Shown: positions 23,407 to 37,912 of the stretch, in pieces | Position numbering within the stretch: the first letter of the stretch is position 1 | Layout: every line of letters starts with the position of its first letter | Source of the DNA: a virus | Direction: 5' to 3' (one strand) | Virus record (IMG/VR): IMGVR_UViG_3300023184_000070 | Span: 1 to 64,000 of that record | Length of the DNA: 64,000 nucleotides | Made by a program: the position numbers and the translations under genes | The notes under the pieces: generated by a model | What the model saw: the letters and a program-made list of their open reading frames with translations, nothing else | Told to the model about the DNA's origin: nothing | Database searches by the model: none

Positions 23407-23892
23407 TTAAACTGGATTTGGATCTTGTGATGTAAACGACGTAATCCACCATGTGCCAGTTCCGGCATCAAATGTGAAGGTCCAAACGGCATTTCCCCAT
23501 TCACGACTGTAGTCAGTGGTGTCTTCAATAGTAGTTTCGCCGCCCGGTTGCATGTAGATGCTGTGATATGTTTGAGCATTTACAGCGTCACGTTTGATAA
23601 TGTATTGTTTTCCGTCTACCGCAGTTTGTGGTAGATATACAGTAGTGCCACGATAGGTTACTGGATTAACAATAACAAAGTGATCCGATGGCAGTAGAGT
23701 ATATTCATAATCATCGTCATTTGCTGTAACTCTTGTAACTTGTACTACACCAGTTACGCCGCCTGCTGATACACCATCGCTAACACGCAAAGCTGGTGTT
23801 GATGGATCATAAAACATGTCACCTGCGTGACCAACGTGAGTGTCGGCGTTGTCATTTACATGCTTGTAATGTATTTTTCTTGTGTTTGCCAT
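23407..23892 (-). CDS. Virion structural protein (161 aa)
   Basis: The N-terminus ANTRKIHYKHVNDNADTHVGHAGDMFYDPSTPALRVSDG resembles the fibre-head motif (GELWYD....LRVSDG) that often opens fibre proteins. The rest (HFVIVNPVTYRGTTVYLPQTAVDGKQYIIKRD...WTFTFDAGTGTWWIT) is a beta domain ending in aromatic residues, similar to phage fibre-tip domains. AAGGAG is at 23901-23906, nine bases from the ATG. It immediately precedes the MGRPLN-type gene and probably shares its transcript. An AATAAATA site upstream (23980-23987) could be its late promoter but overlaps the pirin stop. Confidence 0.7.
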   Translation of the reverse strand: MANTRKIHYKHVNDNADTHVGHAGDMFYDPSTPALRVSDGVSAGGVTGVVQVTRVTANDDDYEYTLLPSDHFVIVNPVTYRGTTVYLPQTAVDGKQYIIKRDAVNAQTYHSIYMQPGGETTIEDTTDYSREWGNAVWTFTFDAGTGTWWITSFTSQDPNPV

Positions 23893-23985
23893 TTTGTTTT
23901 CTCCTTGTGAAACACGGCGTTCTAGGCCGTACGCGGTTGGATTTCCGCATAAGACTCACACCATGTGAATCGTACTAGATATTTA

Positions 23986-34928: not shown

Positions 34929-35162
34929 ATGGATATTCTTGCAAATGTAAAAAAATGGGCTAGCAATCTAGCAGACGCAGGCGTGAGCGTAATTGCTCTA
35001 GCCATTGTACTGGAAATTTTATTTAAAGGGACTGTAATCCCATTTTTCCCAGTAGGTTCAGTTATCACTAACGTGACCACAATCATCGGTGCTTTAGGTT
35101 CCCAAGGACTAGTAGGACTAGTTGCTATTTGGGTATTATACGGTATCTGGAAAAACAAGTAA
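34929..35162 (+). CDS. Small membrane protein with two predicted membrane helices (77 aa)
   Basis: MDILANVKKWASNLADAGV is an amphipathic start. It is followed by a membrane helix (VSVIALAIVLEILF), a short turn with two Pro residues (VIPFFPVGS), and a second helix (GLVGLVAIWVLYGIW), ending in a basic KNK tail. The ribosome-binding sequence AAGGAG is perfect, and a hairpin (ACCACT-AAC-AGTGGT, 34896-34910) lies just before it. Size and topology would suit a holin or a virion membrane-contact protein. No lysis gene is adjacent, so I do not name it. Last gene of the short plus-strand block. Confidence 0.72.
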   Translation: MDILANVKKWASNLADAGVSVIALAIVLEILFKGTVIPFFPVGSVITNVTTIIGALGSQGLVGLVAIWVLYGIWKNK

Positions 35163-35624
35163 ACTTGTATCTAGCAAAAGAAAGACAACATGCTCATTTG
35201 TGTGTTTCTTTCTTTATCTCTATATAAGACTTCTTACAGAAGTCTGTTGTTTCGCTATCGCTCACAACATTATTCTCTATCTTTAATGGATTAGTATCAT
35301 CCAGATTAACTGGTCATAATTCACCGTATGCACGGTGAATTGAAAAGGCATCATCCGAGTAGCCCAGTCATCTATTCTAATGAGATTGCCTTGCGGCGCG
35401 GAGGCGGTTGACCGGTACCCCCTACTCAAGCTTCACATATCAACGGAACCCTAGTGATCCGGAATAGACCCAAATCCTATAGGCTGAGGTTGCATCTTTT
35501 TCGCATAGCCTCAATCATTTATTACCTTAAGTTAGTAATTTTCTTTGGCATCCAAGATCCGGACCGGGTATCTCACCGTTCCTCAATGGAGCGTGGCCTA
35601 ACCACGCACAGCGCCTATGATGTA
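35163..35624. ncRNA. Candidate structured non-coding RNA region, unknown family
   Basis: This 462-base stretch lies between convergent genes and is the only gap over 300 bases in the window. It is dense in perfect inverted repeats: AGACTTC/GAAGTCT (35227-35245), TGTTGT/ACAACA (35245-35269), TGGAT/ATCCA (35287-35303), CCAG/CTGG (35301-35313), a 10-bp stem AATTCACCGT/ACGGTGAATT with a 4-base loop (35318-35341), TGAGG..TGC/GCA..CCTCA (35485-35513), and GCGTGG/CCACGC (35591-35607). The centre is GC-richer than its neighbours. No good coding frame is seen, and I found no group I intron core, hammerhead core or tRNA. Strand unknown: read-through from 35162 would make it plus. Confidence 0.5.
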
Positions 35625-36083
35625 TTAACTTGTTGGACTTTGTGTCTTTGGGAGATTGATTTTGTTTATAATGTGTGAGCCATGTACCCTGCAACTTATC
35701 TGTCCATTATAATAATCTTGTGACTCTAAGACCTTGCGGTCAAATTGTTCACGTGCTTCAATGTAGGAGCACAGGGCTTTTGATGAGCAGTAGCACAAGA
35801 TCTCTCTCTGGAACTTGTCTGCCCCCAGCAATTCTACATCCCGCCGCAACTCATCGTTGCTGCCGTAGTATTCTTGCCAGTCACTGTCGATCTTGCTGCG
35901 TATCTTCTTTTTCTTCTTGATCCCGTTCTTTTGCTTGACCACACGATATGTGGTCTTGGCAAATTTGGCTAGCTTTTTGCCCACGTACTTTCTGTCTGTG
36001 GCGGTATTTGTGATAAGATACACAAAACCTACACAGTCTTCGGGTAATTGTTCAACGGGCATATTCTGATAGAACCAAGTCAT
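35625..36083 (-). CDS. GIY-YIG nuclease-like protein, possible homing endonuclease (152 aa)
   Basis: The N-terminal motif GFVYLITNTATDRKYVGKK is the GIY-YIG signature (VYLI...YVGKK). A Lys-rich insertion follows (KQKNGIKKKKKIRSKID), then SDWQEYYGSNDELRRDVELLGADKFQREIL and the conserved IEAREQF (catalytic Glu candidate). Proteins of this type appear in T4-like phages as Seg-like or free-standing homing endonucleases. It sits alone next to the recombination genes and the structured region. No ribosome-binding sequence precedes the ATG. Instead a 7-bp hairpin (36089-36107) ends six bases before it. Activity and target are not determinable here. Confidence 0.82.
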   Translation of the reverse strand: MTWFYQNMPVEQLPEDCVGFVYLITNTATDRKYVGKKLAKFAKTTYRVVKQKNGIKKKKKIRSKIDSDWQEYYGSNDELRRDVELLGADKFQREILCYCSSKALCSYIEAREQFDRKVLESQDYYNGQISCRVHGSHIINKINLPKTQSPTS

Positions 36084-36142: not shown

Positions 36143-37912
36143 TTATACAGTTTCAACATCGGTATTGTAGGTGGTAAACCCATTTTCTTTGACCACAGTC
36201 AAGATGTTGTTGACCCGCCCGGCTAGTTCATCTTTGTGACTGACCAGCCAAATGCTCTTGTGAGCTTCTCTGCTCATGCGTTTTAGGATAGCCAGTGCGC
36301 TTTCCACACCCGATGCATCCATACCCGAGTCTACTAGTTCATCAATGAACAAAAGATTGACAGGTTGATACAAACTTTCCCAAACATCACGGAACGCCCA
36401 CGACAGACTCAGTATCAGTCTATTGCGCTCGCCCCGGCTGAGGTTGTCAAAGTCTAACTCTCTGCCCAATTCAGTTATGCTCACTGTGAGATCGTTGTTG
36501 AACTTGACCACATGTGGCAAGCCAATACGGTCCAAGTACTGCCCTAGTCTTGCGTTCAAATAACTTAAATTTTGATCAATAATGCGTTTGCGTATAAAAC
36601 TGTCTTTGTTGGTCAACAGTTTCAATAAAAATTCTTGATGATCCCGGACATTGCCTAACTCGTTGATAGTGTCGTAAGTAACAGTCTCTAAGGCCTGTGT
36701 GCTCATTTCTTCTATCTGTTCTGCATATGGATCTGCTTCTGCGTGTTTGCTGGCAATTTGGCTTAATATATTAGCCATGCTGCTGCGATGTTCAAATGCA
36801 TCGCTCTCGCGATCGTAGTAGACTCGAGGCTGCGCACCTGCCGCGCCTATTTCTGCTAGCGCACCAGTCAGTTCAATCCATTGACCGTTGGTGGCCAATA
36901 CCTGTAGTGCAGCTTCTTGTAATTCTTTTTGTTTCTTGGTCATGGCAGTCGCATGATCACCATCGTGCAGATCCTGCCCACATGCATGACATCGGTGATC
37001 CTCTAGTGCTGCAATCTCACGTTGCAGTCGTTCAACTACTTTGTTTTCGCGATCCTCGTCCAGCTCGGCACGTTTAACGGCCTTGGTTAGGTCAGAGATA
37101 TCTTTCACCTGCTGATTGTATTCTGTTAGCGCCTTGTGTGCTGCCAGCTCAGCTTCGATATCTATTAGACTCAACTCGTCGTAGCCCTTTTGCAAGTATG
37201 CTAAATCGCTGTCGTGCTTCTTCTGCCACAACACCTGTCTACGCTTAAAACTTTCAATCTGTTCTTGTATGCGATGGTTGGCATCTGTCACTGCTTTGAT
37301 GCGGAACTCTTCTTGCTGTATAGCATCTTTAGTGGCTTTGTTTAGTTCTTTAAGACGCTCTGCTTTTTCGCTTAGTACTGTAATGCCCAGCAATTGTTCA
37401 ATAATAGTGCGCTGATCGTTGGCTTTCAGGCTGAGAAACGGCTCGGTATAGGTGTTTAATGCTACGATATGGCGGAACATATCCCAGCTCATGCCCAGCA
37501 TGCGTTCTATGTCTGCTTGAGTTTCTCTGCTGTCGCCCTGACTCTCGTCGGTGATCTCACGCTCAACATTGCCTACATAAAAGGCCATGGTGTTGGGCTT
37601 GCGACCACGCTCAATACGATAGTCAGTGCCGTCCTTCTCAAACTCAACAGTGACAATCATGCCCTTGCCGTTGGTTTTGTTGATCAGGTTGTCTTTGCGT
37701 ATGTTGGTCAGTGCAGCACCATACAGGGCATAGCTGAGTGCATTGATGATAGTGGTCTTGCCGGTACCGTTCCTACTGCCAGAATCATCCCCGCCTAGAT
37801 CAATGTTTTCACCCAGGACCAGTGTGAGATCCTTGCGGTCAAAGTCCACAGCCTGCGTGACATTGCCCACGCTCATGAAATTCTTAACAGTCAAATTCTT
37901 GATACGGATCAT
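36143..37912 (-). CDS. 46: Recombination endonuclease large subunit, T4 gp46 (Rad50/SbcC family)
   Basis: A 589-residue SMC-type ATPase. Walker A is GSRNGTGKTT (residues about 45-54), a zinc-hook CHACGQ lies near residue 309 between two coiled-coil arms, the ABC signature is LSRGERN near 489, and Walker B is LLFIDELVD near 520, followed by a switch His (LVSHKDE). With gp47 it resects DNA ends for recombination-dependent replication and degrades host DNA. Its start overlaps the gp47 stop by four bases (ATGA), so expression is coupled. Length is close to T4 gp46 (560). Confidence 0.95.
   Translation of the reverse strand: MIRIKNLTVKNFMSVGNVTQAVDFDRKDLTLVLGENIDLGGDDSGSRNGTGKTTIINALSYALYGAALTNIRKDNLINKTNGKGMIVTVEFEKDGTDYRIERGRKPNTMAFYVGNVEREITDESQGDSRETQADIERMLGMSWDMFRHIVALNTYTEPFLSLKANDQRTIIEQLLGITVLSEKAERLKELNKATKDAIQQEEFRIKAVTDANHRIQEQIESFKRRQVLWQKKHDSDLAYLQKGYDELSLIDIEAELAAHKALTEYNQQVKDISDLTKAVKRAELDEDRENKVVERLQREIAALEDHRCHACGQDLHDGDHATAMTKKQKELQEAALQVLATNGQWIELTGALAEIGAAGAQPRVYYDRESDAFEHRSSMANILSQIASKHAEADPYAEQIEEMSTQALETVTYDTINELGNVRDHQEFLLKLLTNKDSFIRKRIIDQNLSYLNARLGQYLDRIGLPHVVKFNNDLTVSITELGRELDFDNLSRGERNRLILSLSWAFRDVWESLYQPVNLLFIDELVDSGMDASGVESALAILKRMSREAHKSIWLVSHKDELAGRVNNILTVVKENGFTTYNTDVETV

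Follow-up and report, generated by a model that had tools for sequence, protein, structure and literature searches.

We find that the 462-base gap at 35163-35624 of the window (the whole stretch of viral DNA analysed here, 64,000 nucleotides) almost certainly encodes an RNA with a conserved structure. Two features of this RNA look new on comparison of its relatives: a heptamer that occurs twice in the 3′ domain, with both copies varying in lockstep, and a 5′ domain whose two types phages have repeatedly swapped at this one locus. As to its role, we suggest, at slightly less than an even chance, a trans-acting phage RNA of ~390 nt having two sites that would be bound by one partner, likeliest an RNA-binding protein.

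The gap lies, as originally described, between convergent genes, a plus-strand ORF (34929-35162) and a minus-strand GIY-YIG ORF (35625-36083). It had also been called richer in G and C than its neighbors, which is true of the left side (43.1% versus 38.5%) but not of the right (43.6%). The RNA is on the minus strand (~35227-35615), downstream of an operon in which PHROGs names a late sigma factor (sigma55), an SbcD-like gp47, an SbcC-like gp46, and the GIY-YIG protein; its ends (5′ near 35615, 3′ at the last hairpin) are placed by the conserved structure only. The relatives comprise type G1 (including the window copy), type G2, and a mixed remainder, and the 3′ domain is found in all of them. 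The features are listed below; A2 is an alignment of 34 full-length type-1 (G1) homologues.

36143..37912, minus strand: gp46/SbcC-like subunit, upstream gene (PHROGs)
35625..36083, minus strand: GIY-YIG family protein, phrog_447 (PHROGs), directly upstream of the RNA
35227..35615, minus strand: whole structured RNA, ~389 nt (A2 and pair counts; the antisense folds worse in every alignment)
35429..35615, minus strand: variable 5′ domain, G1 type (helices 1-11 of A2)
35591..35607, minus strand: 5′ hairpin with stem GCGTGG/CCACGC (helix 2), covarying
35293..35428, minus strand: conserved 3′ domain, common to all relatives (match to covariance model R1, 115.3 bits, E 2.8e-27, the window copy itself being among the source sequences of R1)
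35401..35422, minus strand: near-invariant hairpin GGGGGTACCGGTCAACCGCCTC, whose stem base covaries as GAGG/CCTC, GTGG/CCAC, CAGG/CCTG, and TAGG/CCTA (A1, other cores)
35350..35370, minus strand: repeat 1, TGACTGGGCTACTCGGATGAT, with heptamer GGATGAT at 35350-35356
35318..35341, minus strand: 10-bp hairpin AATTCACCGT/ACGGTGAATT between the two repeats (helix 17), with TTTGCCC/GGGCAAA instead in G2
35296..35316, minus strand: repeat 2, TGACCAGTTAATCTGGATGAT, with the same heptamer as repeat 1, GGATGAT, at 35296-35302
35245..35269, minus strand: hairpin with conserved apical part GAGCGATAGCGAA (helices 18-19), two-sided changes in 8/8 pairs
35227..35245, minus strand: last hairpin, terminator-like, AGACTTCTGTAAGAAGTCT (helix 20), two-sided change in 6/8 pairs

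The last hairpin (35227..35245) has only a weak U-run when read as the RNA, and is picked up by the pattern scan on plus only; it may serve both convergent transcripts. Many G2 relatives (for example, L010, L030, and L274) carry TCGCTTCGCTC between repeat 2 and the next hairpin; this stretch is complementary to the GAGCG..AGCGA hairpin that follows, and a switch between two folds is possible there. The label “NAD synthetase”, given to phrog_447 (35625-36083 in the window) in PHROGs and in many GenBank phage records, looks wrong, since the other matches of this protein are homing endonucleases.

The original prediction of a large structured RNA is borne out by the homologues and their covariation, and the strand is the minus strand. 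Both stems singled out at the start (10 bp at 35318-35341; GCGTGG/CCACGC at 35591-35607) are present; the count of at least seven perfect inverted repeats is not reproduced with stems of at least 6 bp and loops of 3-20, which gives four (1.4 ± 1.1 in 200 dinucleotide shuffles, nine of which reach four). Both strands fold better than their shuffles (z = -4.02 for plus and -3.97 for minus; 0 of 100 shuffles as good). For 30 close homologues the better fold is that of the minus strand, on which many positions that are A-C mismatches in the plus strand become G-U pairs. The consensus energy of A2 is -159.7 kcal/mol, compared with -85.6 ± 5.9 for column-shuffled alignments and -129.8 for the antisense; a plus-strand RNA was rejected on its poorer alignment folding in all sets. 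Covariation in the homologous gaps, proposed at the outset as a test, is extensive: 50 of the 102 pairs in A2 (n = 34) have a two-sided compensatory change, involving 328 cells (29.6 pairs and 90.5 cells in shuffled alignments). Paired cells amount to 95.0%, versus 85.5% in shuffles and 37-41% in slid controls; the slid control favors the structure because the structure was derived from the same alignment, and the number of two-sided changes carries more weight. Protein coding was rejected, in agreement with the earlier view that the gap holds no convincing frame: the 34 homologues do not exceed shuffled sequence in the length of their stop-free stretches, and of 291 indels only 49 have a length divisible by three.

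Loci fetched by way of the neighboring proteins and then searched by blastn and iterated nhmmer gave 148 homologues of the gap at E < 1e-6. A pattern taken from the most conserved stretch (GAGGCGGTTGNCCGGTACC) added viral contigs, all with a profile match, for a total of 264 loci with a match (some contigs are represented more than once). In nearly all loci the RNA shares its strand with its 5′ neighbor, mostly GIY-YIG and sometimes gp46 or another gene, whereas its 3′ neighbor is usually convergent. Searched over their full length, 25 of 26 records, among them four of 329-354 kb, have exactly one copy of the RNA, so at least some carriers are jumbo phages; the carriers are many uncultured freshwater phages. 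Among phage records, the nearest gp46 is that of PA5oct-like phages (50% identity). Blastn found no homologue of either RNA type in 50,697 phage records, and in PA5oct, Phosso, and Atu_ph07 the 3′-domain covariance model has no match in the region of gp46; as annotation of phage genomes concerns mostly proteins and the cultured-phage records have no match, the RNA had little chance to be seen. Copies in bacterial chromosomes were rejected, the 17 pattern matches in a collection of 84,980 species fitting the 20-nt motif alone. RF01718, discussed below, was found in 0 of 369 genomes of one bacterial class, in a search without a positive control.

Two phages have other gaps near gp46. The gp46 gene of Sinorhizobium phage Phosso (PV764938.1), a cultured jumbo phage, is followed by a noncoding gap of ~1 kb (L316:7410-8425), of which 841 nt fold with z = -4.55 against 20 shuffles and match neither R1 nor Rfam; it is possibly another large RNA near the same place. 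In Pseudomonas phage PA5oct (NC_071039.1) an unannotated gap of ~660 nt (L315:7867-8531) extends from the gp46 region to a baseplate hub gene, and has no match to the 3′-domain model.

The adjacent GIY-YIG gene, which is the usual upstream neighbor, had suggested a mobile-element remnant moved by the nuclease, and an intron moved in this way may be considered as well. We find this hardly credible: it is largely refuted by copies of the RNA that have no nuclease gene (L132, L277, and L188), and the RNA also occurs among unrelated genes (after a MazG-like and after a nucleosidase-like gene in L180 and L236, by our own reading of the sequences), while the isolates that do have the GIY-YIG gene lack the RNA beside it. 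Nor does the RNA interrupt a gene, as the gap lies between two complete ones, and Rfam has no match to a group I or II intron or to an intron-encoded homing element.

Covariance models of 4227 Rfam families, applied to both strands, have no match in the RNA region up to E = 10. The description “of unknown family” therefore holds for the window copy; it does not hold for relatives that share the 3′ domain and carry the Polynucleobacter-1 RNA (RF01718). Membership in the GOLLD or ROOL classes, also raised at the start, receives no covariance-model match. Cow-rumen-2 and other sub-threshold Rfam matches were taken as chance. The sole Rfam match in the window is a freshwater-2 RNA (RF02980) at 23890-23970 on the minus strand (71.4 bits), and ARAGORN found no tRNA or tmRNA gene in the whole window. 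RF01718 scores above its cut-off (37 bits) in 18 of the 50 records carrying the 3′ domain; it is on the same strand and just 5′ of this domain wherever the positions were compared, and the 5′ part of G2 matches it with E-values from 1e-16 down to 3e-29. Conversely, R1 matches the 3′ domain of the window copy and of each of the eight RF01718-positive records re-searched (G001, G012, G015, G020, G029, G035, G036, and G042). By these models the window copy is a variant with a different 5′ domain, and not RF01718 (no match at E <= 10); through the 3′ domain and locus that it shares with the RF01718-bearing RNAs, it is assigned to the same larger RNA class.

We count 12 interchanges between G1 and G2 on the tree of gp46 and 13 on that of the gp26-like gene on the other side, 7 and 8 of which, respectively, are forced by well-supported branches; these interchanges on flanking gene trees indicate that the 5′ type moved between phages at a fixed locus. 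On the tree of the adjacent GIY-YIG gene there are nine changes, only two of them forced, and the 5′ type perhaps moved together with part of the neighboring gene.

The 3′ domain contains two repeats about 55 nt apart, UGAC...CUC-RGAURAN and UGAC...UCU-RGAURAN. In 161 sequences, the first variable site (R) is G in both copies in 91 and A in both in 70, and the second (R2) is G/G in 103 and A/A in 58, with no mixed case at either site; the last base of the heptamer (N) has one mixed case. On trees built without the repeat columns, parsimony counts about 43 changes at the heptamer sites, all shared by the two copies (0 mismatches in 33 + 80 sequences), and independent pairs on well-supported branches are in the same direction in 23 of 23 cases (R 11, R2 6, and N 6). 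Per site and RNA type there are between two and six lockstep changes on well-supported branches, and because of these low numbers R in G2 is the only case with a sign-test p below 0.05 when taken by itself. Rarer changes, at positions that are fixed elsewhere, are present in both repeats as well: GCATAA occurs twice in L044, GATCAA twice in L268, and AGACGAA twice in L052. The flanks, CTC and TCT, have kept their difference, which speaks against simple gene conversion; a mutational copying process is unlikely, as it would need to halt at the heptamer boundaries. Two structural readings of the repeats were dropped: hairpin loops with covarying stems look good by eye and are not claimed, since a swap test lends them little support (z 2.7 and 0.8), and pairing of repeat 1 with repeat 2, proposed by RNAalifold on G2, is contradicted by L044 and L052.

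Since the two copies always vary in concert at these sites, the simplest reading is that one outside partner reads both repeats. A partner in cis is unlikely, because outside the second repeat no column of the RNA tracks the variable bases to this degree, and the complement of the heptamer, rejected as a target, is not enriched in the RNA, within ~5 kb, or at the start codons of four large phage contigs. The heptamers might instead be two identical seeds (RGAURAN) of a base-pairing regulatory RNA directed at one kind of target in host or phage. The seed is short, repeated, and outside the consensus helices, and most substitutions at R and R2 are A/G transitions, the kind that co-evolving pairs show; but its complement is enriched neither at start regions nor genome-wide in those four contigs, nor in the loci, and a U in the partner would tolerate mixed A/G copies, which are not seen. 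We consider base pairing quite unlikely.

The absence of a complement in cis leads us to infer that the RNA acts in trans, which we think probable, counting also its single copy per record and the two copies among unrelated genes. Against this, nearly all copies follow the last gene of the same operon, where a 3′ UTR is to be expected, and a T4-type late promoter is found upstream of the RNA in 1 of 237 cases. The main rival is accordingly a 3′ UTR element of the sigma55-gp47-gp46-GIY-YIG messenger, with exonuclease protection, termination or feedback as its role and no separate RNA. Its position at the operon end, on the same strand, in most of ~260 loci agrees with this, as do the terminator-like last hairpin and the lack of an obvious promoter of its own. 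We nevertheless hold it to be somewhat unlikely, because the RNA follows unrelated genes in L180 and L236, persists where GIY-YIG is absent or other genes intervene (L132, L188, and L190), and, with 390 nt, a near-invariant 3′ domain and lockstep repeats, exceeds what stability or termination needs.

The mechanism that we propose for a trans-acting RNA starts from what is observed, namely the RNA, its two repeat copies, their lockstep, and the exchange of 5′ types. A minus-strand RNA would be made after the sigma55-gp47-gp46-GIY-YIG genes, end at the terminator-like hairpin, and act in trans; its 3′ domain would offer two copies of one recognition element (UGAC...CUC/UCU-RGAURAN). The partner would most likely be an RNA-binding protein of the phage or host, and we propose its binding at both sites tentatively, at a little under even chances. 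Such binding may sequester or scaffold the protein, and the exchangeable 5′ domain may set the complex or the target.

The repeats could also be equivalent contact points of an RNA that self-assembles into a large complex, as GOLLD, ROOL, and OLE do, which form homo-oligomers according to one report (PMC12286853). Size, single copy, and the near-invariant 3′ domain are compatible with self-assembly, but there is no Rfam match to these classes, and a base-paired self-contact needs complementary rather than identical changes; we judge it very improbable. An identity tag in competition between related phages is improbable too, although it fits the exchange of types (7 and 8 forced changes) and the lockstep code. 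If it were true, the 5′ types would be cassettes swapped at a fixed locus, and a co-evolving partner would read the twin heptamers as a changing recognition code, for example, to tell self from a co-infecting phage.

GOLLD and ROOL are large structured noncoding RNAs, some of which are carried by phages; the window RNA is shorter (~390 nt) and has other conserved elements. CsrB-type RNAs titrate a protein through repeated identical recognition sites. The likeness of the window RNA to them would be in the way of working only: it has just two candidate sites, and the GGA core of CsrA sites is lost in the 43% of the sequences that have A at R. The table of Weinberg et al. (2010; PMC2864571) gives RF01718 as a probable RNA with a probable cis-regulatory role, from Burkholderiales and fresh water, whereas in the relatives studied here it forms the 5′ part of a phage RNA placed after genes; it is only 141 nt long, and in L191 it ends ~105 nt before the 3′ domain. 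Since RF01718 precedes the same 3′ domain in one branch, this little-studied candidate motif is the 5′ part of a longer phage RNA, and becomes part of a full-length RNA class with a strand, a structure, approximate ends, and two architectures, whose lockstep heptamers point to the bases read by the partner, so that the partner can be sought directly.
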